A program made the position numbers and the translations under genes. This document shows positions 16,136 through 57,791 of a DNA stretch of 64,000 nt, one piece after another. Position 1 is the first letter of the stretch. Each line of letters opens with the position of its first letter. Below the pieces are notes generated by a model, which saw only the letters and a program-made list of their open reading frames with translations, did not search any database and was not told where the DNA came from. Origin of the DNA: Mycolicibacterium aromaticivorans JS19b1 = JCM 16368 (GTDB taxonomy: Bacteria > Actinomycetota > Actinomycetes > Mycobacteriales > Mycobacteriaceae); assembly GCF_000559085.1 (NCBI RefSeq), contig NZ_JALN02000001.1, positions 372,001 to 436,000 on the forward strand, read 5' to 3'.

Positions 16136-16633
16136 GTGAAGCTCAGCGACCTGGCCGACCGCCCGTTGACCTACGCCGAGGTGGGCGCGACCGCGGCGGG
16201 TCTGCCGGCGGGGTACCACCATGTGCGGTTGTCGTCGCGCATCGGTAGCGGGCGGGCGCGCTTCGAGCGCGCAGCGGACTCGGTGATGCGGTACGGGATG
16301 CTGCGCGGCGCCGGTCTGCGGGTCGCGGCCACCACGGAGGTGGCCGAGGTTGGCACCGATGTGCTCGGCCGGCTCGGGCCATTCCTCGCACCCTGTCGGG
16401 TGGTGTACGTGGTCGACGAGTCCAATCGCCGTGGCTTCGCCTACGGCAGTCTGCCCGGCCACGCGGTGTCGGGCGAGGAGATGTTCGGTGTGCGCTTCGA
16501 TCCCGGCGATGAATCGGTCCACGCCGAGGTGGTGGCCTTCTCGACGCCGGCCACCTGGTGGAGTCAGGTCGGAGCCCCGGTCGCCTCGCTGGTTCAGCGG
16601 GTGATCACTCGGCGCTACCTGTCGGTGGTCTAG
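16136..16633 (+). CDS. DUF1990 domain protein
   Basis: A 165-residue protein of the DUF1990 family, recognised from the opening LSDLADRPLTYAEVGAT, the central RFERAADSVMRYGMLRGAG and the tail block EEMFGVRF.....VHAEVVAFSTPATWW. The family is common in actinobacteria; its function is undefined. Its GTG start has no clear Shine-Dalgarno site. Its 3' end overlaps the convergent membrane-protein gene by 29 bases. Confidence 0.85.
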   Translation: MKLSDLADRPLTYAEVGATAAGLPAGYHHVRLSSRIGSGRARFERAADSVMRYGMLRGAGLRVAATTEVAEVGTDVLGRLGPFLAPCRVVYVVDESNRRGFAYGSLPGHAVSGEEMFGVRFDPGDESVHAEVVAFSTPATWWSQVGAPVASLVQRVITRRYLSVV

Positions 16634-17681
16634 GCGCGGCCCGCTGCGCCGCGACGTCGACTTGGTAGGACAGGATCGCCAGGCCGAACAGGCCGATGGA
16701 CAGGGTGATCAGGGCGGCGAATCCTTCGGTCGCGAAATGCACCAGCGCGCTCAGGAGAGTGAACACCAGAGCGCCGGTGCGGAGCAGCCGCAGCGGCCAC
16801 AACGTCGTCGTACGCCGTAGTGCGATCATCGCAGGCAGCGCCATCGCCAGGGTCAGCGCGGCGCCGACCATCAGGATGATGGTGGCCGGGGTCTTGCCGG
16901 CCAGATGTATCGAGACATGACTGTCCTGATAGAAGTAGCCGCCCAACGCGATGCCCAGCGCGTGGAAGAGCAGGCCGAGCACCGCGCCGGCCACCAACAG
17001 CCAGCCCACCCAGGGCACCCACTTCGGGCTTCGAAACACGTTGGGGATCAATCGTTGTGCCCATCGCCGCGCCCGATAGCCGCGGTCGGTGGCTCGTGCT
17101 GCCGAGAGCAACAGCGCGCGGACGTGCTCGACGTCGTCGGTCGACGCTCCCCTGTCTCGGGCGTATTCGACGAGTCGCAGACCGATCTCGCGGCGGTGGT
17201 CGGGCAGTCCGCGGGCTACACCGTCGGTGGCGATCGCCGCCGAGGACGCCAGGCATTCTCGCGCACTGAGTGGCCGAATGGCCCGCACCAGGCGGGCTCC
17301 GGCGAGGATCAGGCAAACCAGGATGTACATGATCTCGGCGGCCGGACCGTAGAAGTAGTCGTTGTCCTTGGTGACGAATTTGCCCACCTCGTCGAGGAAC
17401 AAGCCGAAGCCGATCCCGCCCAGCACTACGGCCAGCGACCGCGGGCGCGAGCCGATAACCATCCAGCCGACCAGCAGGGCGAGCATCATCAGTGCACCGC
17501 TCCACAGCGCGTGCGCGATGTGCAGGTCTCCACCCCCGACTTGCGGGTAGCCGGTGAGTTGCAGGTAGAGCCGGGTCAGCAGGATCGTCGCGATCGCGAT
17601 GATGACAAAAGCCTCGGCCGACGTCAGACCGGTGGCGTTACGCGTGATGGGTCCGCGTCGCACGCGGGTCTGCTCGGTCAT
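16605..17681 (-). CDS. Polytopic membrane protein of unknown function
   Basis: A 358-residue membrane protein with about seven hydrophobic spans: one near residue 24-40, a pair at 55-95, one at 113-130, then after a long cytoplasmic-looking stretch (130-225, rich in Arg and Asp) three more to residue 345. No catalytic motif was recognised. ATG 17681 has AGGAG six bases upstream. It is divergent from the GAF-ANTAR gene, with 35 bases between, and its 3' end overlaps the DUF1990 gene. Confidence 0.75.
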   Translation of the reverse strand: MTEQTRVRRGPITRNATGLTSAEAFVIIAIATILLTRLYLQLTGYPQVGGGDLHIAHALWSGALMMLALLVGWMVIGSRPRSLAVVLGGIGFGLFLDEVGKFVTKDNDYFYGPAAEIMYILVCLILAGARLVRAIRPLSARECLASSAAIATDGVARGLPDHRREIGLRLVEYARDRGASTDDVEHVRALLLSAARATDRGYRARRWAQRLIPNVFRSPKWVPWVGWLLVAGAVLGLLFHALGIALGGYFYQDSHVSIHLAGKTPATIILMVGAALTLAMALPAMIALRRTTTLWPLRLLRTGALVFTLLSALVHFATEGFAALITLSIGLFGLAILSYQVDVAAQRAAPRPPTGSAE

Positions 17682-17716
17682 CGAATCTCCTCTGCGCCGA
17701 TGTTGCACTACCCATC

Positions 17717-18448
17717 GTGGCGGGTATGGCATCTGTCATGTCGGTCGACCGAGGATTCCCCGCTGCGGACGCCGCCGCCCGCATTGCCGACATCACCCGG
17801 CGGCTCTACGAACGGCGAAGTCTCGACGTCGGTGTGGCCGCCGAACTCGTGGAGCACGCCGCCGCGGAATTGCCCGGTGCGGAGTACGCGAACATCACTG
17901 TGACGGCAGATCAATTCGAGATCGACACCCCGGCGGCGACGACTCAGGCCGCGATCCGCATCGACGACATCCAACGCCGCACCGGAGAGGGCCCGTGCCT
18001 GTCAACCGCGTGGGAGCACCGAGTGGTTTACGTCGAGGATCTTTCCCGGGAGACGCGCTGGCCGGCCTTTTGTGCCGAGGCGCTGGAGACCACAGCGGTG
18101 CGCAGCATCATGGGTTTTCAGCTGTTCATGACGGGCAAGTCGATAGGCGCGCTGAATGTCTTCGCCGATCGCCCGCATGCGTTCGACGACCGCACCCGCC
18201 AGCTCGGCTCGCTGTTCGCAGCGCACTCGGCGCTGGTCTGGGACGCGGGCCGCCGCGAGTCACAGTTTCAGGCGGCGTTGGCCAGCCGCGACATCATCGG
18301 GCAGGCCAAGGGCATGATCATGGAGCGCTACGGCAAGGACGCCAACCAGGCGTTCGAAATGTTGCGGCAGCTGTCGCACGATACGAACGTGCCGTTGGCC
18401 GAAGTCGCGGCCAAGGTCGTCGATGCGGCACAGGCACATCCGCGCTGA
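17717..18448 (+). CDS. GAF and ANTAR domain antiterminator/regulator
   Basis: A roughly 240-residue regulator. A GAF sensory domain fills about residues 45-180 (TGEGPCLSTAWEHRVVYVEDL is typical), followed by the RNA-binding ANTAR domain (SRDIIGQAKGMIMERYGKDA to LAEVAAKVV). ANTAR proteins bind paired hairpins in nascent RNA and prevent termination. Candidate starts are GTG 17717, ATG 17726 and ATG 17738; the first is given as the longest. The input signal and RNA target are unknown; the first place to look is the leader of a neighbouring gene. Confidence 0.88.
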   Translation: MAGMASVMSVDRGFPAADAAARIADITRRLYERRSLDVGVAAELVEHAAAELPGAEYANITVTADQFEIDTPAATTQAAIRIDDIQRRTGEGPCLSTAWEHRVVYVEDLSRETRWPAFCAEALETTAVRSIMGFQLFMTGKSIGALNVFADRPHAFDDRTRQLGSLFAAHSALVWDAGRRESQFQAALASRDIIGQAKGMIMERYGKDANQAFEMLRQLSHDTNVPLAEVAAKVVDAAQAHPR

Positions 18449-18454
18449 CCGGTA

Positions 18455-19450
18455 TCAATCACGCAGCGTTCGCGGCAACCCGAATCGCGGCATCACGTCG
18501 TTGTCGAATCGGGTCAGCCCGCAGATCCGCTCACCGGCCAGATCGAGGACCAGTAGGCCGGCGGCGTGACGAGTGGGGTCAACACCCGTTCTGAGGTAGG
18601 CCCCGAAGGCAGGCTGACCGTTGGCGCGGGTAGCCACCAGGGTGTAGCTGCGTTCGCGGAGGATTTTGGCGTAGAAGCCCGCAACGGCGTCGAGGCCGTG
18701 ATACTCCAACGGAATCGGCGGCATGGACACCCGCACGTCGGCGGTCAACAGGCGAACCAATGCGTCGATGTCACCGGTTTGGTAGGCGCGCACGAAATCT
18801 GCGACCACCGCCTGCTCCGCTGAGGAATTCGGTTCCGGCGGTTCGACATCCCGGTCGCTCCTGCCGACCGTCTCGCGCGCCCGCTTCAGCGCGCTGTTCA
18901 CCGAAGCGATTGTGGCGCCGAGCATCTCGGACACCTCGCCGGTCCGGTAACCGAGCACATCGCGCAGGATCAGAACGGCGCGCTGGCGCGCCGGAAGCAA
19001 CTGCAACGCGGTCACGAACGCCAGCGAAATGGCTTCTTGCTGCTCGTATGCGGCCTCCGGTCCGAGAGCAGACGCATCCGCGACGTCCAGTAGATGAGCC
19101 GGGATGGGCTCCAGCCAGACGATCTCGCCGTAGTGCGTCGGCTCGGGCAGGCCATTCTCAGCGATGGCGACCTCCGCGGCCTGTCGCTTTCGCCGTCCCG
19201 AACGCAGCACGCCCAGGCACTGATTGGTGGCGATGCGGTACAGCCACGTGCGTACCGATGCCCGCTCCTCGAATCCGTCCAGCGCCCGCCAGGCCGCCAG
19301 CATCGTGTTCTGGACCATGTCTTCGGCGTCGTGCAGCGAGCCGAGCATCCGATAACAGTGCACCTCGAGTTCGCGACGGTGTGGTTCGGTCAGCGCGCGG
19401 AACGCGTCGCTGTCGCCTGCCCGCGCCTTCTCGATCAGATTGGCTGTCAT
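18455..19450 (-). CDS. ECF sigma factor with SnoaL-like C-terminal domain
   Basis: A 331-residue extracytoplasmic-function sigma factor of the SigG/TIGR02960 type. Region 2 covers about residues 10-75 (RELEVHCYRMLGSLHDAEDMVQ ending in the ASVRTWLYRIATN block), region 4 about 135-195 (LPARQRAVLILRDVLGYRTG), and residues 210-325 form a SnoaL-like domain, which in such sigma factors modulates activity instead of a separate anti-sigma factor. The gene is convergent with the GAF-ANTAR gene (6 bases) and divergent from two SDR genes, likely targets. ATG 19450 is the chosen start. Confidence 0.9.
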   Translation of the reverse strand: MTANLIEKARAGDSDAFRALTEPHRRELEVHCYRMLGSLHDAEDMVQNTMLAAWRALDGFEERASVRTWLYRIATNQCLGVLRSGRRKRQAAEVAIAENGLPEPTHYGEIVWLEPIPAHLLDVADASALGPEAAYEQQEAISLAFVTALQLLPARQRAVLILRDVLGYRTGEVSEMLGATIASVNSALKRARETVGRSDRDVEPPEPNSSAEQAVVADFVRAYQTGDIDALVRLLTADVRVSMPPIPLEYHGLDAVAGFYAKILRERSYTLVATRANGQPAFGAYLRTGVDPTRHAAGLLVLDLAGERICGLTRFDNDVMPRFGLPRTLRD

Positions 19451-19612
19451 GCCATGTCACCGCTCACCTCGCACGTATCGGCCGCGCTGCGCGACGCCCA
19501 CCTGTACTGACGTTCGGCGGGCGCAAAAGTGATCGCGAACTCACCGCTCATCTGGACAGCAACGGTGCATCTAACTCTTCGACAGGTTCCTGCCCATTGC
19601 CGAGGAGAAGCT

Positions 19613-20344
19613 ATGCCCATTCAAGACAAGATTGATGACAAAACAGTGCTCGTGACCGGTGCGAATCGCGGTATCGGCCGGGCACTCGTGCACGAGGCGC
19701 TACGCAGAGGCGCCAGCTGCGCCTACGCCGCCACACGCCGGCCGTTCGTCGACCCGGACGACCGGATCCGGTCGGTGACGATGGATGTCACCGACCGGGA
19801 GCAGATTCAACGCGCCGCCGAGCAGGTGGGCTCGTTGGACATCCTGATCAACAATGCCGGCGTCGCCGACTACGACGACCTGTCCGATCGAATCGCGATC
19901 GAACGTCACCTCGCTGTCAACTTCTTCGGAACCTACGACGTCGTCGCGGCGTTTCTGCCGAAGCTGCTCGAGTCACGCGGCACCATCGTGAACAACTCCT
20001 CGCTGAACGCCCTTGCGCCGCTACCTCTGATCCCGGCGTACTCCATCTCCAAAGCCGCCACCTTCAATCTCACCCAGTCGCTGCGCGCGCTGCTCGCTCC
20101 TCGGGGGGTTCGCGTACACGCCGTTCTCACCGGTCCGGTCGACACTGATATGAGCCGCGGCGTGGATATACCCAAGGCCACACCGGAATTTGTTGCGACG
20201 GCGGTGTTCGACGCAATCGAGAGCGGGCACGACGATATCTTTCCCGACCCCATGGCGCAGTCACTCGAGCAACGGTGGCGGGATGGCGCCGCCAAAGCAC
20301 TCGAGCACCGTTACGCCGCGCTCATCGGCATGCAGGCCTCGTAG
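19613..20344 (+). CDS. SDR family oxidoreductase
   Basis: A 243-residue short-chain dehydrogenase. The cofactor site TGANRGIG is at 15-22, NNAG at 80-83 and the catalytic YxxxK is Tyr143/Lys147 after the serine block NNSSLN. The basic TRR after the second strand suggests NADPH use. ATG 19613 follows GAGGAGAAG. The gene is divergent from the ECF sigma factor across 162 bases and is followed after 28 bases by a second SDR. The substrate is unknown. Confidence 0.9.
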   Translation: MPIQDKIDDKTVLVTGANRGIGRALVHEALRRGASCAYAATRRPFVDPDDRIRSVTMDVTDREQIQRAAEQVGSLDILINNAGVADYDDLSDRIAIERHLAVNFFGTYDVVAAFLPKLLESRGTIVNNSSLNALAPLPLIPAYSISKAATFNLTQSLRALLAPRGVRVHAVLTGPVDTDMSRGVDIPKATPEFVATAVFDAIESGHDDIFPDPMAQSLEQRWRDGAAKALEHRYAALIGMQAS

Positions 20345-20372
20345 CAGACGAACGACGACCGGAGGGATCGAC

Positions 20373-21119
20373 ATGACCGAACTGCACGATTTGACGGTGC
20401 TCGTGGTGGGAGCCGGGCGTGGATTGGGGCGCGGTATTGCCACCGCCTTTGCCCGGTCGGGTGCCGATGTCATTGCGCTCGCCCGCGACGGCGCGTCGCT
20501 GGCCGCGCTGGCGGACACCCATCCCGCCGTCCGCACGCACGTGGCCGATGCGTCGGACGCCGCCACGGCGCGGCGCGTGCTCGGTGAGTATCGGCCCGAC
20601 GCGGTGATCGTGGTCGCCGGCGCCACCCCCGTGATGCGTGGCCTGACGCAGCACTCCTGGGAGACGTTCTCCGTCAACTGGGACGCCGACGTGAAGATCG
20701 CCTTCACCTGGGCGCGGGAGGCGCTTCTGCAGCCGCTGGCGCCCGGCAGCAGGGTCATCATCATCAGCAGCGGCGCGGCGCTGAACGGATCACCGCTCAG
20801 CGGCGGCTACGCCGGATCCAAGGCAACTCAACGGTTCATCGCTCAGTACGCCCACATGGAATCGGAGCGCGCCGGTATGAGTGTCACCTTCACCACCGTC
20901 ATGCCGAGGATGACGCCGGCCGGCGACGTCGGACTGGCAGGTATCCGGGCCTACGCACACCAGGCCGGTCTGACCGAGGACGCGTTCATCGAGCAGCTCG
21001 AACCGGTGATCACGCCGGAGCTCGCGGGCCAGGCAATGATCGATCTGATGACCCTCGATACCGCCGACTCCGCCGCCGGCTACCTGCTGACCGGAGCAGG
21101 TCTGGCCCCGCTGACCTGA
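20373..21119 (+). CDS. SDR family oxidoreductase, atypical NNAG motif
   Basis: A 248-residue short-chain dehydrogenase-fold protein. The glycine motif GAGRGLGRG is at 13-21 and YxxxK is Tyr146/Lys150 after IISSGAALNG. The usual NNAG is replaced by VVAGATP around 80-86. ATG 20373 has GGAGGG six bases upstream. It probably shares a transcript with the preceding SDR and lies near the ECF sigma gene. The substrate is unknown. Confidence 0.85.
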   Translation: MTELHDLTVLVVGAGRGLGRGIATAFARSGADVIALARDGASLAALADTHPAVRTHVADASDAATARRVLGEYRPDAVIVVAGATPVMRGLTQHSWETFSVNWDADVKIAFTWAREALLQPLAPGSRVIIISSGAALNGSPLSGGYAGSKATQRFIAQYAHMESERAGMSVTFTTVMPRMTPAGDVGLAGIRAYAHQAGLTEDAFIEQLEPVITPELAGQAMIDLMTLDTADSAAGYLLTGAGLAPLT

Positions 21120-21172
21120 CCGGCGCCGGCCGACGAAGTGTGAAAACACCGCGGATCGGCTACTGAATTGAC

Positions 21173-21889
21173 GTGGCTGCTGCTGATTTCGACCGCGCGG
21201 TGATCGTCGTCCCCGCCCACAACGAAGCGTCGGCATTGCCGGACTGCCTCGAGGCGATTTCGGCTGCGGCCGCGCGGGCGGATCTTCCGGTCACCGTGGT
21301 GATCGTCCTGGACGGCTGCGACGACGGCAGCAGTGCGCTGGCGGAGCGGTTCGGTACCGATGTGCATTTCCTCGAGATCGACGCACACAACGTGGGCGAG
21401 GCGCGGGCCGCTGGCTTCTCGTTCGCCTGCGACCAGGGTCTGAGTGGTCCGACCACCTGGTATGCGACCACCGACGCAGACAGCCGGGTGGACTCCAACT
21501 GGCTGGTGCGCCAACTCGGCGCAGACGCCGACATGGTTCTCGGCGTGGTGCGAATCGCCAACTGGCGCCAGATCCCGGTCACCGCTGTCCGCAGGTACCT
21601 TCGCGCGTATCACGCCAAGATCCAGCCAGGCCAGGTGGCGCATGACCACGTCCACGGCGCGAATATGGGTTTCGCAGCCGACGCCTACTGGCATGTCGGT
21701 GGATTCGGGGCACTGGCAAGCGGCGAGGATGTGGACCTGGTCCATCGGTTCGAAGTGGCCGGATTCCGAATCCGGCGCGACACCCGGCTCTCGGTGGCCA
21801 CGTCCGCACGCCAGATCGGCCGCGCCCCAGCCGGATTCGCCGCCCACCTTCGCGGGATGCTGGCCGATCCGCAGCGCGACTCGGCATGA
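21173..21889 (+). CDS. Family 2 glycosyltransferase
   Basis: A 238-residue GT2 (GT-A fold) glycosyltransferase without membrane spans, so it probably works on the cytoplasmic side. Features are VVPAHNEASALPDCLEAI near the start, LDGCDDGS for nucleotide binding, the metal-binding TTDADSRVDSNWL and the acceptor-side GGFGALASGEDVDLVHR with the ED pair. It starts with GTG 21173, no clear Shine-Dalgarno site. It heads a four-gene operon in which every junction is a 4-base ATGA or GTGA overlap, with an acyl-CoA dehydrogenase-like protein, a PIG-L deacetylase and a NodS methyltransferase. Sugar donor and acceptor are unknown. Confidence 0.85.
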   Translation: MAAADFDRAVIVVPAHNEASALPDCLEAISAAAARADLPVTVVIVLDGCDDGSSALAERFGTDVHFLEIDAHNVGEARAAGFSFACDQGLSGPTTWYATTDADSRVDSNWLVRQLGADADMVLGVVRIANWRQIPVTAVRRYLRAYHAKIQPGQVAHDHVHGANMGFAADAYWHVGGFGALASGEDVDLVHRFEVAGFRIRRDTRLSVATSARQIGRAPAGFAAHLRGMLADPQRDSA

Positions 21890-22815
21890 CCGTCACGACT
21901 GTGCAGCGCTGGCTCGACGCCGGCGAGCTGAGCCTGCCACTACCCGGCTCGGGTGGCACCCTGGCGCGCTGGCAGGCACTGGCCGCGCTGTGCGAACGCG
22001 ATGTGGTGGCCGGCCGGCTGGCGGAGGCGCACACCGACGCGATCGCGATCCTTGCCGAGCTGCACGGGCCGCGGGCGCGGCCTGGCCGGTTGTGGGGCGT
22101 GTGGGCGGCCGAGGCGCCCGGCGCGACCGTCACCGCGCATCATGACGGTGATGGCGTGAGGTTGACCGGAGTCAAGGCGTGGTGCTCTGGCGCCGGGCTG
22201 TGCGCCGACGCGCTGGTGACGGCCCACACGCAGACAGGTGCCCGCGGTCTCTACGCGGTCGACCTGCACGGCCCGGGCGTTCAGCCGCTGCCGAGCACGT
22301 GGCGTAACGCGGGCATGGCCGACTCGGACACCCGCTCCGTGCGATTCAGCGCCGCACCGGCCACCCCGGTCGGCGGTCCCGACGAGTATCTGACCCGGCC
22401 GGGCTTCTGGCACGGCGCGGCCGGCGTCGCGGCCTGCTGGCTGGGCGCTGCCCGCGCGGTGGCAACACCGTTGTATCGCGCGGTCGCCGAGAATCAGAGC
22501 GAGAACCCTTATGCCGCAGCACATCTCGGTTCCGTCGACGCCGCTCTGGCCGCGGCGGGCGCCCTGATGGCCGACACCGCTGACCAGGTGGACGCGGCGC
22601 CGCACAGCACAGGACAGGTCGCGGCCCGGCGACTACGGGCTGCCGTCGAAACCGCGGTCGACGAGGTAGTCGGCCGAACCGCACGGGCACTGGGTCCCAC
22701 ACCGCTTGTCATGGATGAGGCCCATGCCCGCCGTGTCGCGGATCTGACCGTGTACGTCAGGCAGAGTCACGCCGAGAAGGATCTCGCGGCACTGGGCGTG
22801 CTGGTAGCCCGATGA
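21886..22815 (+). CDS. Short acyl-CoA dehydrogenase-like protein
   Basis: A 309-residue relative of acyl-CoA dehydrogenases, shorter than the usual 380-400. The middle beta-domain is visible (VTAHHDGDGVRLTGVKAWCSGAG within 85-110), and the C-terminal helices end in VYVRQSHAEKDLAALG, which resembles the final helix of the family. I could not place the catalytic glutamate of typical members. It may desaturate an acyl chain, or act on an acyl group carried by something other than CoA. It overlaps both neighbours by four bases, which ties it to the GT2, PIG-L and NodS genes. Confidence 0.78.
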   Translation: MTVTTVQRWLDAGELSLPLPGSGGTLARWQALAALCERDVVAGRLAEAHTDAIAILAELHGPRARPGRLWGVWAAEAPGATVTAHHDGDGVRLTGVKAWCSGAGLCADALVTAHTQTGARGLYAVDLHGPGVQPLPSTWRNAGMADSDTRSVRFSAAPATPVGGPDEYLTRPGFWHGAAGVAACWLGAARAVATPLYRAVAENQSENPYAAAHLGSVDAALAAAGALMADTADQVDAAPHSTGQVAARRLRAAVETAVDEVVGRTARALGPTPLVMDEAHARRVADLTVYVRQSHAEKDLAALGVLVAR

Positions 22816-23573
22816 GACCACCGACCGGCAACGCGACCCGGTTCGCGGCCGTACCGATCTCCGGCGGTGGGACACCCGCCGAGGAATGGCTTCGGGGGCA
22901 GGCGTTTCCGTCGTTGTCGCTGGATCAGTGCCCGAGCCTGGTCGTGCTGGCACCCCATCCTGACGACGAAACGCTCGGCTTCGGGGCGGCCGCCTGCGGG
23001 GTCGCGGCCCGTGGCATCGACGTACATACGGTGATCGCCAGCGACGGCGGTGCGGCGTGGCCGGGGCTCTCGGTCTCCGAGCGGGCCCGGCTCGAAGAGT
23101 CCAGGCGCAGTGAATCACGCACCGCGGCAGCGGTTCTCGGTCTTCCGATGCCGGATTTCCTCGGCCTTCCGGACGGTAAGCTCGCCGAGAACGAATCCCG
23201 GCTCGCCGACGTCCTGACCGACATTCTGGCGGCTCGTCCTGCGGGCACCTGGTGCGCGGCGACGTGGCGCGGTGATGGTCATCCCGATCACGAAGCGGTC
23301 GGTCGGGCCGCGGCTGTCGCCGCGTCCCGTACCGGGGCCGTGCTGCTGGAGTATCCGATCTGGATGTGGCACTGGGCTCATCCCGGTGACGAGGCTGTGC
23401 CGTGGCAGCGCGCAGTACGGATAGTCACGAATCCGTCTGCTGCGCAACGTAAACGCGAGGCGGTCGCGTCGTTTCGAAGCCAACTCGAGAGCGACGCCAC
23501 CGGCCGCGAGCCGATCCTTCCGCCGTACGTGCTGGAGCGGTTGGATCGTGTGGGAGAGGTGGTGTTCCAGTGA
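22812..23573 (+). CDS. PIG-L/LmbE family N-deacetylase
   Basis: A 253-residue zinc-dependent deacetylase of the PIG-L/LmbE family, which removes N-acetyl groups from GlcNAc-containing substrates (MshB, PIG-L, BshB). The zinc and catalytic motif PHPDDE is at 48-53, and the second motif GHPDH at 156-160 supplies the third ligand and the His. No signal peptide is present, so the reaction is cytoplasmic. Within this operon it would free an amino group on a sugar that the NodS-like enzyme could then methylate; that is inference. Confidence 0.9.
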   Translation: MRPPTGNATRFAAVPISGGGTPAEEWLRGQAFPSLSLDQCPSLVVLAPHPDDETLGFGAAACGVAARGIDVHTVIASDGGAAWPGLSVSERARLEESRRSESRTAAAVLGLPMPDFLGLPDGKLAENESRLADVLTDILAARPAGTWCAATWRGDGHPDHEAVGRAAAVAASRTGAVLLEYPIWMWHWAHPGDEAVPWQRAVRIVTNPSAAQRKREAVASFRSQLESDATGREPILPPYVLERLDRVGEVVFQ

Positions 23574-24202
23574 CGTCCGGTCTGCCTCACAGCTACTTCG
23601 ACGCCCTCTACGCCGAGTCGGCCGATCCGTGGGAGCTCGCCTCACGGTGGTACGAACGGCGCAAGTATGCGATCACGATGGCGCTACTCCCCCGCGAGCG
23701 GTACCGGCATGCCTTCGAGCCGGGATGCTCGATCGGGGTGCTCACCGAACAGCTGAGCGCCCGATGCGATCACGTGACAGCTGTCGACGTCGCCGACGCC
23801 GCGCTGGCGCACGCCGATGCCCGGTTGCGTGCCAGTGGATCGTGCGACGACATCACATTGCTGAATCGCTCATTCGATACCGAATGGCCGGCAACCGATT
23901 TCGACCTGGTGGTGATCTCCGAGGTCGGCTACTACTTCGATGCTGCGACGCTGCAGGAAACCTTGGCCCGGGAGATCCCGCGGCTTCAGCCGTGCGCCAC
24001 GATCCTCAGCGCGCACTGGCGCCACCCGGTCTCCGACTATCCGCTGTCCGGTGATGCCGTGACCGCGATCGTCGCAGGCACACCCGGACTGCACCGGATC
24101 GGCGGATACCGGGACGACGACGTCACCATCGAGGTGTTCGATACCGGTTCGGCGCAGTCGGTCGCCGCGCGCACGAGTGTTCCCGGGGCCAAGCCCCGCT
24201 GA
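23570..24202 (+). CDS. NodS-type SAM-dependent methyltransferase
   Basis: A 210-residue class I methyltransferase matching the NodS family. The opening PHSYFDALYAESADPWELASRWYERRKY is characteristic when read in two parts (SYFDALYAES and DPWELASRWYERRKY), the SAM motif I is FEPGCSIGVLTEQL (about 48-61), and motif II is VDVADAAL. In rhizobia NodS N-methylates the deacetylated end of a chitooligosaccharide. The GTG start overlaps the PIG-L stop (GTGA). It ends six bases from the convergent threonine-tail gene. Confidence 0.87.
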   Translation: MTSGLPHSYFDALYAESADPWELASRWYERRKYAITMALLPRERYRHAFEPGCSIGVLTEQLSARCDHVTAVDVADAALAHADARLRASGSCDDITLLNRSFDTEWPATDFDLVVISEVGYYFDAATLQETLAREIPRLQPCATILSAHWRHPVSDYPLSGDAVTAIVAGTPGLHRIGGYRDDDVTIEVFDTGSAQSVAARTSVPGAKPR

Positions 24203-24208
24203 GCAAAC

Positions 24209-25696
24209 TCAGGGCGCCACATTGAGGTTCGGCGCCGGCGGCAGGCCGGGAATCCGTGGCGGCGGCGGCAATCCGGGAATCAACGGCCGACGCGTCGAGG
24301 TGGTCGTGGTGTCCCACTGGGTGGTGGTCGTCGTGGTGGTCGGCGTCGTGGTCGTGGTGGTCGGCGTCGTGGTCGTCGTTGTCGTGGTGGTAGTGGTCGT
24401 CGTGGTGGTCGGCGTCGTGGTGGTCGTGGTGGTCGGCGGGGTCGTGGTGGTGGTCTCCACGGTCACGACGGTGGTCGGGGCCTGTGGGGCGGGCGCCTGC
24501 TCTGTGACGGTCTGGACCGGCGGGTTGGTCAGCGTGCCGGTCTCAGCAGGCGGCGGTGCTTGCGGTGCGCTCACGATCGACGACACCGCGGTGGCCGGAA
24601 GGGGTTTGACCGAAGGGGTGCTCGGCGTGCTGGTGCCGGTGAGTGTGTAGGCGAAGCCGCCGACGGCGACCGCTGCGACGGCGGCCGCCCCGCCGAGCAG
24701 CAGCGGCACACTGCGCGTCAGGCTGGACCCGCGCTCCTTGGGCGGTTCCGCGTCGAGGATCGACAGGTCGTCGTCCTCGGCGTCGCTGTAACCGCGGTAG
24801 TCGGCGTCGCTGTAGCCGTAGGACTGGTCGTACCCGGCGGTATCGTCCGGCGCGTCGTCGTTGGACCAGGCCAGCGGCGCGGCCATCGTTGCCGACTGCG
24901 GACCGGGGTCGGCGATCATCGGCGCGGGCGCCATGCCGGTCGGCGCGTCGGCAGCCAGCTGCCGTGCTGCGGCCAGGCCGGCTCCCAGTGCCGCATCCAG
25001 ATGGGGGTGCGCCGAGACCGTGACCGGCATCTTCAGGTGCTCGGAAAGGTGCTGCGTGGCCACCGGTGTCACCGATTCGCCGATGACGGCGACGGCGCTG
25101 ACATCGGCCCGGCCGATCCTGGCGCGCTCCAGTGTTCCGTCCAGGGCGCGCAGGAATTCGGTGTCGTCGCCGGACAGTTCTGCGAAGCGGGTCGTCTCCC
25201 CGATCTGGCGGTAGTCGGCGGCCGCGTCGGCCAGGGTGACGGATGTGCCGCCGCCACCGAAGTCGCACACCACGATCACACCCCGGCGAGGCAGCCCGGG
25301 GTCGCTCTGCAGAGAGCGCAGCGCCGCAGTCGCGTCGGACACCAGCAGCGGCGGTGCGGCCGCCGACGCCAGCGCCGGCAGATTCCAGAGCGCATCACGT
25401 AGCGCATCGCGGCGGCCGGGTCCCCAGTGCGCCGGAACCGCGACGCCCGACACCGCGTTAAGGCCCGAGCCCTCGGTGTCTGCCAGCCCGGACAGTGCCG
25501 CGGCCAGCAGCTGCTCGGCGCGATAGGCGAAGCCGTCATCGCCGGTCAACGGGATCGGGTCACCGACGCGGTCGACGAAATCGGTCCAGAGCTGGTCGCC
25601 GAGCGTGACCGCGGCGGGACAGATCACCGGCGCCGCCCCGGCCCGCGCGGCGACCAGGCTGGCTGTGCCCACGGAGATACCCAGCGGTTCGGTCAT
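24209..25696 (-). CDS. Actin-fold single-span protein with Thr-rich tail
   Basis: A 495-residue protein in four parts. Residues 1-250 resemble an Hsp70/actin-type ATPase module, with DFGGGGTSVTL (145-155) as the phosphate-2-like loop and AVIGESVTPV as the adenosine-side loop. Residues 280-318 are acidic and Tyr-rich. One membrane span lies at about 332-352. The exterior tail has a nearly pure threonine tract (407-467) broken by prolines, then a Pro-rich end. It resembles the proline/threonine-rich family that includes Rv0312. The N-terminal domain should be cytoplasmic and the tail in the cell wall. ATG 25696 is chosen; GTG 25732 is an alternative. The function is unknown. Confidence 0.75.
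   Translation of the reverse strand: MTEPLGISVGTASLVAARAGAAPVICPAAVTLGDQLWTDFVDRVGDPIPLTGDDGFAYRAEQLLAAALSGLADTEGSGLNAVSGVAVPAHWGPGRRDALRDALWNLPALASAAAPPLLVSDATAALRSLQSDPGLPRRGVIVVCDFGGGGTSVTLADAAADYRQIGETTRFAELSGDDTEFLRALDGTLERARIGRADVSAVAVIGESVTPVATQHLSEHLKMPVTVSAHPHLDAALGAGLAAARQLAADAPTGMAPAPMIADPGPQSATMAAPLAWSNDDAPDDTAGYDQSYGYSDADYRGYSDAEDDDLSILDAEPPKERGSSLTRSVPLLLGGAAAVAAVAVGGFAYTLTGTSTPSTPSVKPLPATAVSSIVSAPQAPPPAETGTLTNPPVQTVTEQAPAPQAPTTVVTVETTTTTPPTTTTTTTPTTTTTTTTTTTTTTTPTTTTTTPTTTTTTTQWDTTTTSTRRPLIPGLPPPPRIPGLPPAPNLNVAP
24295..24460. repeat. Low-complexity GTG/GTC tract encoding polythreonine
   Basis: About 165 bases that on the plus strand are almost only G and T with scattered C, built from GTG, GTC and GTT units, which read ACC/GAC-type Thr codons on the minus strand. 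It encodes the threonine run of the actin-fold protein. Such tracts can change length by slippage; no exact long period is visible, since Thr codons alternate irregularly and prolines interrupt. Confidence 0.8.
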
Positions 25697-25787
25697 CCGG
25701 CCATGATCACCAAGGCTTGGTGCGAAAGTCACTCAGGCGCGCCGATTCGGCACGCCCCTATGACCTAACTGTGACTTTGCTTGGTGC

Positions 25788-57276: not shown

Positions 57277-57351
57277 TGGTGGTCCCGGCTGGTATCGAAC
57301 CAGCGACCTTCCGCGTGTGAGGCGGACGCTCTCCCACTGAGCTACGAGACC
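57277..57351 (-). tRNA. tRNA-Val (anticodon CAC)
   Basis: Reads on the minus strand with acceptor GGTCTCG paired to CGGGACC (one G-T pair), D arm GCTCAGTGGGAGAGC, anticodon stem-loop with CAC in a seven-base loop, and T arm GCTGG/CCAGC around TTCGATA. The 3' CCA is encoded. Confidence 0.93.
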
Positions 57352-57526
57352 CGGTGCGCGCGCACCATGAGAATGGTGCCCGATTCGCCGAGGACGAACA
57401 TTATCACGGCACACCCGTCCGGCCAGAATGCGCTCGTCGCGGCGCCGCGGCGAGGGGATTTGTGCGGCTTCGCCTACGTCGACTATTGTCGTCCTTCGCA
57501 GCGGGCGACGATTTCGTCCGAAGCGC

Positions 57527-57599
57527 GCGGATGTAGCGCAGTTGGTAGCGCATCACCTTGCCAAGGTGAGGGTCGCGGGTTCGAATCCCGTCATCCGCT
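57527..57599 (+). tRNA. tRNA-Gly (anticodon GCC)
   Basis: Acceptor GCGGATG pairs with CATCCGC, the anticodon loop shows GCC between the stem arms TCACC and GGTGA, and the T loop is TTCGAAT. The CCA end is not encoded. Confidence 0.93.
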
Positions 57600-57629
57600 C
57601 GAAGGTGCAAGTGCGGCATCAGACCCAAC

Positions 57630-57703
57630 GGTGGAGTGGCCGAGTGGTGAGGCAACGGCCTGCAAAGCCGTGCACACGGGTTCGATTCCCGTCTCCACCT
57701 CCA
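57630..57703 (+). tRNA. tRNA-Cys (anticodon GCA)
   Basis: Acceptor GGTGGAG pairs with CTCCACC, the anticodon GCA lies in the loop of CGGCC...GGCCG-like arms (ACGGC/GCCGT), and the T loop is TTCGATT. The CCA end is encoded at 57701-57703. Confidence 0.93.
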
Positions 57704-57716
57704 AGAGATTGGTCCC

Positions 57717-57791
57717 GCGCGATTAGCTCAGCGGGAGAGCGCTTCCCTGACACGGAAGAGGTCACTGGTTCAATCCCAGTATCGCGCACCA
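57717..57791 (+). tRNA. tRNA-Val (anticodon GAC)
   Basis: Acceptor GCGCGAT pairs with ATCGCGC, the D arm is GCTCAGCGGGAGAGC, the anticodon GAC lies between TTCC and GGAA stem halves, and the T loop is TTCAATC. CCA is encoded at 57789-57791. It completes a Gly-Cys-Val array that is probably one transcript. Confidence 0.93.

Follow-up and report, generated by a model that had tools for sequence, protein, structure and literature searches.

The window analyzed here is a 64,000-nucleotide stretch of the 6.3-Mb genome of Mycolicibacterium aromaticivorans JS19b1 = JCM 16368 (contig NZ_JALN02000001.1, positions 372,001 to 436,000). It contains a cassette of four plus-strand genes at 21173-24202. These encode a GT2 glycosyltransferase (GT), an acyl-CoA-dehydrogenase-fold flavoprotein (ACAD), a PIG-L N-deacetylase, and a class I, S-adenosylmethionine (SAM)-dependent, NodS-like methyltransferase (MT). 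With slightly better than even confidence, we propose that the cassette makes a small, cytoplasmic, oxidized, N-methylated amino-sugar glycoside that probably serves stress survival. The following scheme is inferred with respect to donor, acceptor, step order, methylation on N rather than O, oxygenase chemistry, and physiological role. The GT would transfer an N-acetylated amino sugar to a small acceptor, and its donor would probably be UDP-linked GlcNAc or GalNAc. PIG-L would remove the N-acetyl group, and the MT would methylate the exposed amine. The ACAD, as an oxygenase of the DszC or nitrososynthase type and not a fatty-acyl desaturase, would oxidize either the sugar itself or the sugar nitrogen. 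The resulting glycoside would probably help the cell to survive desiccation, osmotic, or oxidative stress.

The GT gene (21173-21889) has a GTG start and encodes 238 amino acids (aa). It matches Pfam PF00535 Glycos_transf_2 at 45 bits (cutoff, 23.3). The ACAD gene (21886-22815; 309 aa; ATG start) matches Acyl-CoA_dh_M at 28.1 bits, below the cutoff of 33.3. The PIG-L gene (22812-23573; 253 aa; ATG start) matches PF02585 at 87.8 bits (cutoff, 28.2). The MT gene (23570-24202; 210 aa; GTG start) matches Pfam NodS at 55.5 bits (cutoff, 24). Neighboring genes overlap by 4 nucleotides (nt) at all three junctions (ATGA, ATGA, and GTGA). The open reading frames (ORFs) and Pfam matches bear out the first-pass annotation of this DNA, which had described these four genes and their 4-base overlaps. 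The closest named relatives of the window PIG-L are from Mycolicibacterium and Mycobacterium.

Conservation and spread of the cassette

The four families are a real conserved unit. Named genomes were scanned with an ACAD profile, and the best 80 of at least 561 confirmed stretches were kept. In 55 of these 80 loci, matches to all four families (E value of 1e-10) fall within a span of 5 kb. The order is GT-ACAD-PIGL-MT in 50 of the complete loci, ACAD-PIGL-MT-GT in 4, and PIGL-GT-ACAD-MT in 1.

A sample of 217 genomes spread evenly over Actinomycetota was also searched. Cutoffs were E values of 1e-30 for ACAD, MT, and PIG-L and 1e-25 for GT, and only the best 9 to 14 first-look candidates were scored per genome. 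The MT was found in 24 genomes, the ACAD in 23, PIG-L in 12, and the GT in 26. Every one of the 24 MT genomes contains the GT, 21 contain the ACAD, and 10 contain all four families. The hypergeometric P value for ACAD with MT is 6e-24, with kinship among the genomes ignored. Joint occurrence, on which the first-pass annotation had made its pathway depend, is thus not rare. The ten four-family genomes show at least five gene orders (GAPM, APMG, AMPG, GPAM, and GMPA). The GT is on a different contig in G219 and G240. That the genes are kept together despite changing order argues for a shared pathway.

The cassette is also plasmid borne in Alpha-, Beta-, and Gammaproteobacteria and Deinococcus, plus Kitasatospora. 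A tblastn search with one MT matched 62 plasmid records, and the cassette was checked in those named here: Acinetobacter, Pandoraea, Kitasatospora, Sulfitobacter, Komagataeibacter, Bradyrhizobium, Sphingobium, and Deinococcus gobiensis. The order on the Acinetobacter plasmid is ACAD-PIGL-MT-GT. D. gobiensis, Bradyrhizobium, and Komagataeibacter encode the GT on the other strand from the rest of the cassette. Sphingobium has a profile-matching GT upstream. Fifteen plasmid loci with a full or partial cassette were fetched. Three (L002, L005, and L006) had no annotated gene and were dropped, which left 12.

Several loci count against the proposed explanation. Partial cassettes are common, at 25 of the 80 scanned loci (8 ACAD alone, 7 ACAD-PIGL, 4 ACAD-PIGL-MT, 3 GT-ACAD, 2 GT-ACAD-PIGL, and 1 ACAD-MT). 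Some of these stop at a contig edge (e.g., L026 and L051), and in others some or all of the partner genes are lacking beside the ACAD. Genome G017 carries the ACAD and PIG-L and had no MT or GT match in a genome-wide profile search. Profile searches recognized no deacetylase in G196. Paraburkholderia D15 shows only the MT and GT. No GT was found within a 14.6-kb stretch of Deinococcus radiodurans, which has a helicase gene between PIG-L and the MT.

The cassette ACAD stands without an adjoining PIG-L, MT, or GT in Mycobacterium simiae, M. asiaticum, M. simulans, M. angelicum, and M. palustre. The lone-ACAD mycobacterial loci are L033 (9001-9936), L043, L052, L053, L055, and L071. The pathway may be decaying in these mycobacteria, or the ACAD may have a use of its own.

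No extra partner family recurred among 20 neighbor proteins compared from seven actinobacterial loci. A multicopper oxidase in L119 was rejected as a partner, as its only other occurrence is next to the lone ACAD of L130. Among the open-licence PMC papers matched by literature searches, none describes the cassette as a pathway in its title, abstract, or index terms. Trimethylglucosamine and chitotriomycin were tried as a literature lead, and nothing relevant was found.

Deacetylation, methylation, and glycosyl transfer

Judged by the Pfam cutoff and the metal site, the window PIG-L is a member of the PIG-L deacetylase superfamily. It contains the metal site HPDD ... HxDH. Residues H49, D51, D52, H157, D159, and H160 do not vary in either of two partly overlapping sets of 12 and 10 members, and P50 is A in one member. 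The nearest PDB sequences are TT1542 and diacetylchitobiose deacetylase. The best-named NCBIfam relatives are BshB1, BshB2, and MshB. This likeness would suit a low-molecular-weight thiol pathway resembling that of mycothiol or (N-methyl-)bacillithiol, with the GT and PIG-L giving a GlcN glycoside. We consider such a pathway very unlikely. PIG-L scores far under the equivalog cutoffs (49.8 versus 182.5 bits for BshB1 and 26.7 versus 224.35 bits for MshB). The cassette GT belongs to GT2, unlike MshA and BshA, which are GT4 enzymes. No cysteine-ligase gene is annotated in the 12 plasmid loci.

The deacetylase is of another kind in one lineage. The spacing ACAD-MT-1.2 kb-GT or MT-1.2 kb-GT was found in 11 of the 217 genomes, and these had no cassette-type PIG-L match at an E value of 1e-30. 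Seven of the 11 loci were fetched (L112 to L116, L128, and L129). All seven contain a CE4 deacetylase, the ACAD, the MT, a FAD/NAD reductase, and the GT, in that order. The CE4 and reductase profiles were built from L113 and L115, and the other five loci are independent tests. ACAD or reductase matches are doubled in L112 and L129, and the cassette genes of L113 overlap by 4 nt. The deacetylase of L113 and L115 belongs to PF01522. The top NCBIfam match of the L113 protein is NodB, at 113 bits against a cutoff of 240. The CE4 profile had no match near the PIG-L cassettes searched. The named relatives of this deacetylase are from Rubrobacter or Rubrobacteraceae in seven of seven cases, and L128 belongs to another family (f22). 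The reductase resembles ferredoxin-NAD reductases, and its profile also matches near L006, L036, and L048.

That one position in the cassette is filled by either of two unrelated N-deacetylase families is the strongest evidence that the enzyme there takes an N-acetyl group off a sugar. The swap indicates one of the chemical steps while presupposing nothing about the product. With a NodB-type CE4 enzyme in place of PIG-L, deacetylation followed by N-methylation is the best reading of the cassette.

In L126, an MT-ACAD-GT cassette was matched by neither deacetylase profile. A DNA photolyase gene directly adjoins it (L126:9036-11282, minus strand).

The MT family profile matched 4isc (an entry titled "Methyltransferase") first in the PDB and then NodS (3ofj and 3ofk), with an E value of 2.7e-24. 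By this comparison, NodS is the nearest characterized PDB relative. A Pfam NodS match is unspecific by itself, because the model also hit 8 of the 14 control genomes, E. coli among these 8, and exceeded the cutoff in 6. The MT could also act on O instead of N, which would count against the proposed product. According to PMC5080398, N-methylation in Rhizobium depends on prior mono-deacetylation. This suggests, by analogy, that N-methylation follows deacetylation in the cassette as well. One Rubrobacteraceae-type genome has a second MT-family copy (G187:C22:36224-36778) on a contig other than that of its cassette.

The GT appears from its AF2 model (pLDDT, 90.6) to be a short soluble GT-A enzyme. 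The model contains a single GT-A domain and no transmembrane part. Motifs D101-A102-D103 and E185-D186 are invariant in a 42-row alignment. NodC was not among the 11 NCBIfam matches of the GT. The first-pass annotation had likened this enzyme to NodC. The superfamily assignment holds, and the likeness does not extend to the architecture of this 238-aa protein.

The joint presence of a deacetylase, a GT2 enzyme, and a NodS-like MT, and the NodB-type CE4 of the Rubrobacteraceae-type loci, would fit a true Nod-factor-like lipo-chitooligosaccharide signal. This is the least likely of the explanations considered, and we give it very little credence. The GT lacks NodC architecture. The MT scored 60.1 bits against the NCBIfam NodS equivalog cutoff of 300 and did not pass. 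No NodA was seen. No NodA-type acyltransferase is annotated in the 12 plasmid loci, which contain one GNAT about 4.5 kb away from its cassette. None was found in the Pfam run of ten window proteins (16605-25732), the part of the genome searched. The Bradyrhizobium copy has no nod gene annotated within 8 kb besides the MT's own Gene Ontology (GO) term. The first-pass annotation had noted no adjacent acyltransferase. It had allowed for an N-acylated product, together with deacetylation and N-methylation of an amino sugar. Deacetylation and then methylation are supported by the NodS relationship and by the CE4 enzyme in seven of seven loci where PIG-L is missing. N-acylation is not, as no acyltransferase was seen in the loci examined except the one GNAT.

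Oxygenase or dehydrogenase

We read the cassette ACAD as a putative flavin oxygenase and not as a dehydrogenase, because the EGT glutamate is absent and the best PDB relatives are DszC-type oxygenases. None of the 12 cassette ACADs has Glu in the column of the catalytic glutamate; the residue there is S, H, P, or A. In a 46-row ACAD alignment, this column contains S in 43 rows and H in 3. It contains E in seven of seven ACADs from the same genome as the window. These seven were the ones with the EGT signature among 14 own-genome ACAD loci fetched, so that this control anchors the column and is no proof. The best PDB sequence match is TdsC for the cassette ACAD and DszC for the Rubrobacter form. 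Residues H49 and S101 (CSG motif) are present in 12 of 12 members and in 46 and 45 of the 46 rows, and they align with DszC and TdsC. We take them to be the counterparts of DszC H92 and S163 near the flavin. Isovaleryl-CoA dehydrogenases have an alternative catalytic glutamate in helix G. The presumed helix-G stretch has no conserved Glu in the 12 ACADs, in an alignment where no isovaleryl-type control was identified.

The ACAD falls below the NCBIfam cutoffs of the named oxygenases. The Rubrobacter form matches SfnB (62.8 versus 430.9 bits) and DszC (48.1 versus 850 bits) best. The window protein scored 27.7 bits for SfnB against the same cutoff of 430.9.

Other features of the ACAD weigh against the oxygenase reading. 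The model is a complete three-domain acyl-CoA dehydrogenase fold, and its top Foldseek rows are dehydrogenases. The fold does not discriminate, as oxygenases and dehydrogenases tie at Z scores near 30. All 12 members have E or D at position 47, and this acid could act as an alternative base. Three of the seven own-genome dehydrogenases share the His and two share the Ser in the columns of H49 and S101. For the Rubrobacter ACAD, a dehydrogenase nearly equals DszC (2.2e-10 versus 8.3e-11). The host genome is rich in such enzymes, with 47 PF00441 matches at an E value of 1e-20.

The fold, the acid at position 47, and the richness of the genome would favor a glycolipid pathway. In it, the ACAD would desaturate an acyl-CoA or acyl chain later linked to a deacetylated (N-methylated) amino sugar. 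We regard this as unlikely, given the S, H, P, or A in the EGT column (against E in the own-genome ACADs chosen by signature), the helix-G stretch, the TdsC and DszC matches, and the 12 plasmid loci, whose only annotated acyltransferase is the one GNAT. The same evidence runs counter to the acyl-chain desaturation suggested in the first-pass annotation. The gene annotated as an acyl-CoA dehydrogenase becomes a candidate oxygenase.

The Deinococcus ACADs (L132:1196-3535 and L133:3905-6253) are fused to about 400 N-terminal residues. This part matched no Pfam family at 0.001, and that of L132 also matched no PDB chain at 0.01. By eye, it has a likeness to a glycosidase-like barrel. A Methylobacterium ORF that spans the GT and ACAD in an apparent fusion (L002:4855-7221; 788 aa) has a long, odd linker. 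It may be two genes or a frameshift and was not used as evidence.

Gene neighborhoods and known systems

Stress genes were found in the 7- to 8-kb flanks of 9 of the 12 annotated plasmid loci. They include genes for trehalose synthesis, catalase, CsbD/DUF883, ferritin-like proteins, spore photoproduct lyase, Ku/LigD/RpoH, and a general stress protein. The Bradyrhizobium copy adjoins Ku, LigD, and RpoH. Controls were stretches of equal size from other parts of these 12 plasmids, with positions fixed before viewing. Stress genes were present in 1 of the 12 controls by a strict count (PRC-barrel and SOS peptidase), in 2 with cytochrome c peroxidase added, and in 4 by a generous count that adds hemerythrin and nitrogen-starvation genes. 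The Fisher values for these comparisons are 0.003, 0.012, and 0.10. One of the nine loci (Paraburkholderia, L138) is a partial cassette with the MT and GT. Leaving it out gives 8 of 11 (0.012 versus 2 of 12).

In A. baumannii, a table in PMC5660220 marks ACICU_02432-02435 (GT, MT, LmbE, and ACAD related) as one operon. These genes are 31- to 62-fold down in colistin-dependent mutants, and trehalose-6-phosphate synthase and phosphatase are 12- to 50-fold down in the same mutants (PMC5660220). The operon was matched to the cassette by the annotation and order given there, not by sequence. A. baumannii sequence records contain PIG-L and ACAD homologues side by side.

These surroundings suggest stress survival rather than signaling. 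Points on the other side are the two Deinococcus loci and Sphingobium, which have no stress neighbors, and the seven actinobacterial loci, whose neighbors are mostly unrelated (with a glycine-betaine transporter in L123 and GlgE in L117). The stress word list was made after the loci were seen, and the loci were hand-picked from match lists for diversity and are partly related, so the enrichment is indicative only.

A specialized natural product or envelope decoration, such as an amino-sugar antibiotic, a nucleoside, or a wall glycan, would be another possible product instead of a stress protectant. We judge it about as unlikely as the glycolipid. The nitrososynthases KijD3 and DnmZ share the ACAD fold and act on nucleotide amino sugars, and the title of the KijD3 PDB entry names a nucleotide amino-sugar ligand. 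Nucleoside and wall glycosyltransferases are among the low-identity fold matches of the GT, and Sphingobium has other GT genes upstream. For such a pathway, a range that takes in Actinobacteria, Deinococcus, and Proteobacteria would be atypical, and so would stress neighbors on many plasmids. No extra tailoring, transport, or resistance gene was seen to recur in the loci examined.

Two SDR genes lie directly upstream of the window cassette (19529-20344 and 20373-21119). They were rejected as members because only 2 of 108 loci searched carry homologues at an E value of 1e-20. Further upstream (17717-19450) are a GAF-ANTAR regulator and a TIGR02960-type ECF sigma factor that carries a SnoaL-like domain, with homologues in 13 and 2 of the 108 loci. 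Downstream, a minus-strand gene (24209-25732) encodes a protein of 507 aa, which has a long low-complexity tail rich in Thr and Pro and matched no Pfam family at 0.01. It has a homologue in 7 of the 108 loci. Elsewhere in the window, four tRNA genes (Val, Gly, Cys, and Val) are clustered at 57277-57791.

If the proposed glycoside is real, a small molecule not yet described is common to bacteria of several phyla and may aid survival of drying and related stress. It would also give a chemical hypothesis for the co-regulation with trehalose synthesis that has been published for A. baumannii. A bolder version, which we hold only tentatively, is a widespread, unrecognized stress metabolite made by a self-contained four-enzyme cassette. 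It could be an N-methylated amino-sugar glycoside, perhaps quaternary and betaine-like or N-oxidized. Possibly, then, Nod-factor decoration logic is run on a small molecule in lineages including Rubrobacter, Deinococcus, mycobacteria, and Acinetobacter.

Most likely, the cassette works partly like the nod decoration module and yet is not a member of it. It shares with rhizobial nodBCS an N-deacetylase, a GT2 enzyme, and a NodS-like SAM methyltransferase in one cluster. The Rubrobacteraceae-type cassettes share even the NodB-type deacetylase. NodC is a membrane enzyme, whereas the cassette GT2 is short and soluble in its model, and the nod deacetylase is CE4, whereas that of the cassette is usually PIG-L. 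The cassette adds an ACAD-fold oxidoreductase, shows no NodA, and has stress rather than symbiosis surroundings. The A. baumannii genes ACICU_02432-02435 have the same four annotated functions in one operon, by annotation only, and the published table lists them as an expression change without a function. Among the sequence relatives of the cassette ACAD, DszC/TdsC, SfnB, MsuC, and the nitrososynthases rank first or close to first. DszC and TdsC share the His and the CSG motif with it, and the His and Ser are also found in some dehydrogenases. The window ACAD (309 aa) is shorter and scores far below the equivalog cutoffs of DszC and SfnB. MshB, BshB, and diacetylchitobiose deacetylase have the PIG-L family and metal-site residues in common with the cassette enzyme, which scores below the MshB and BshB cutoffs and has different partner genes.

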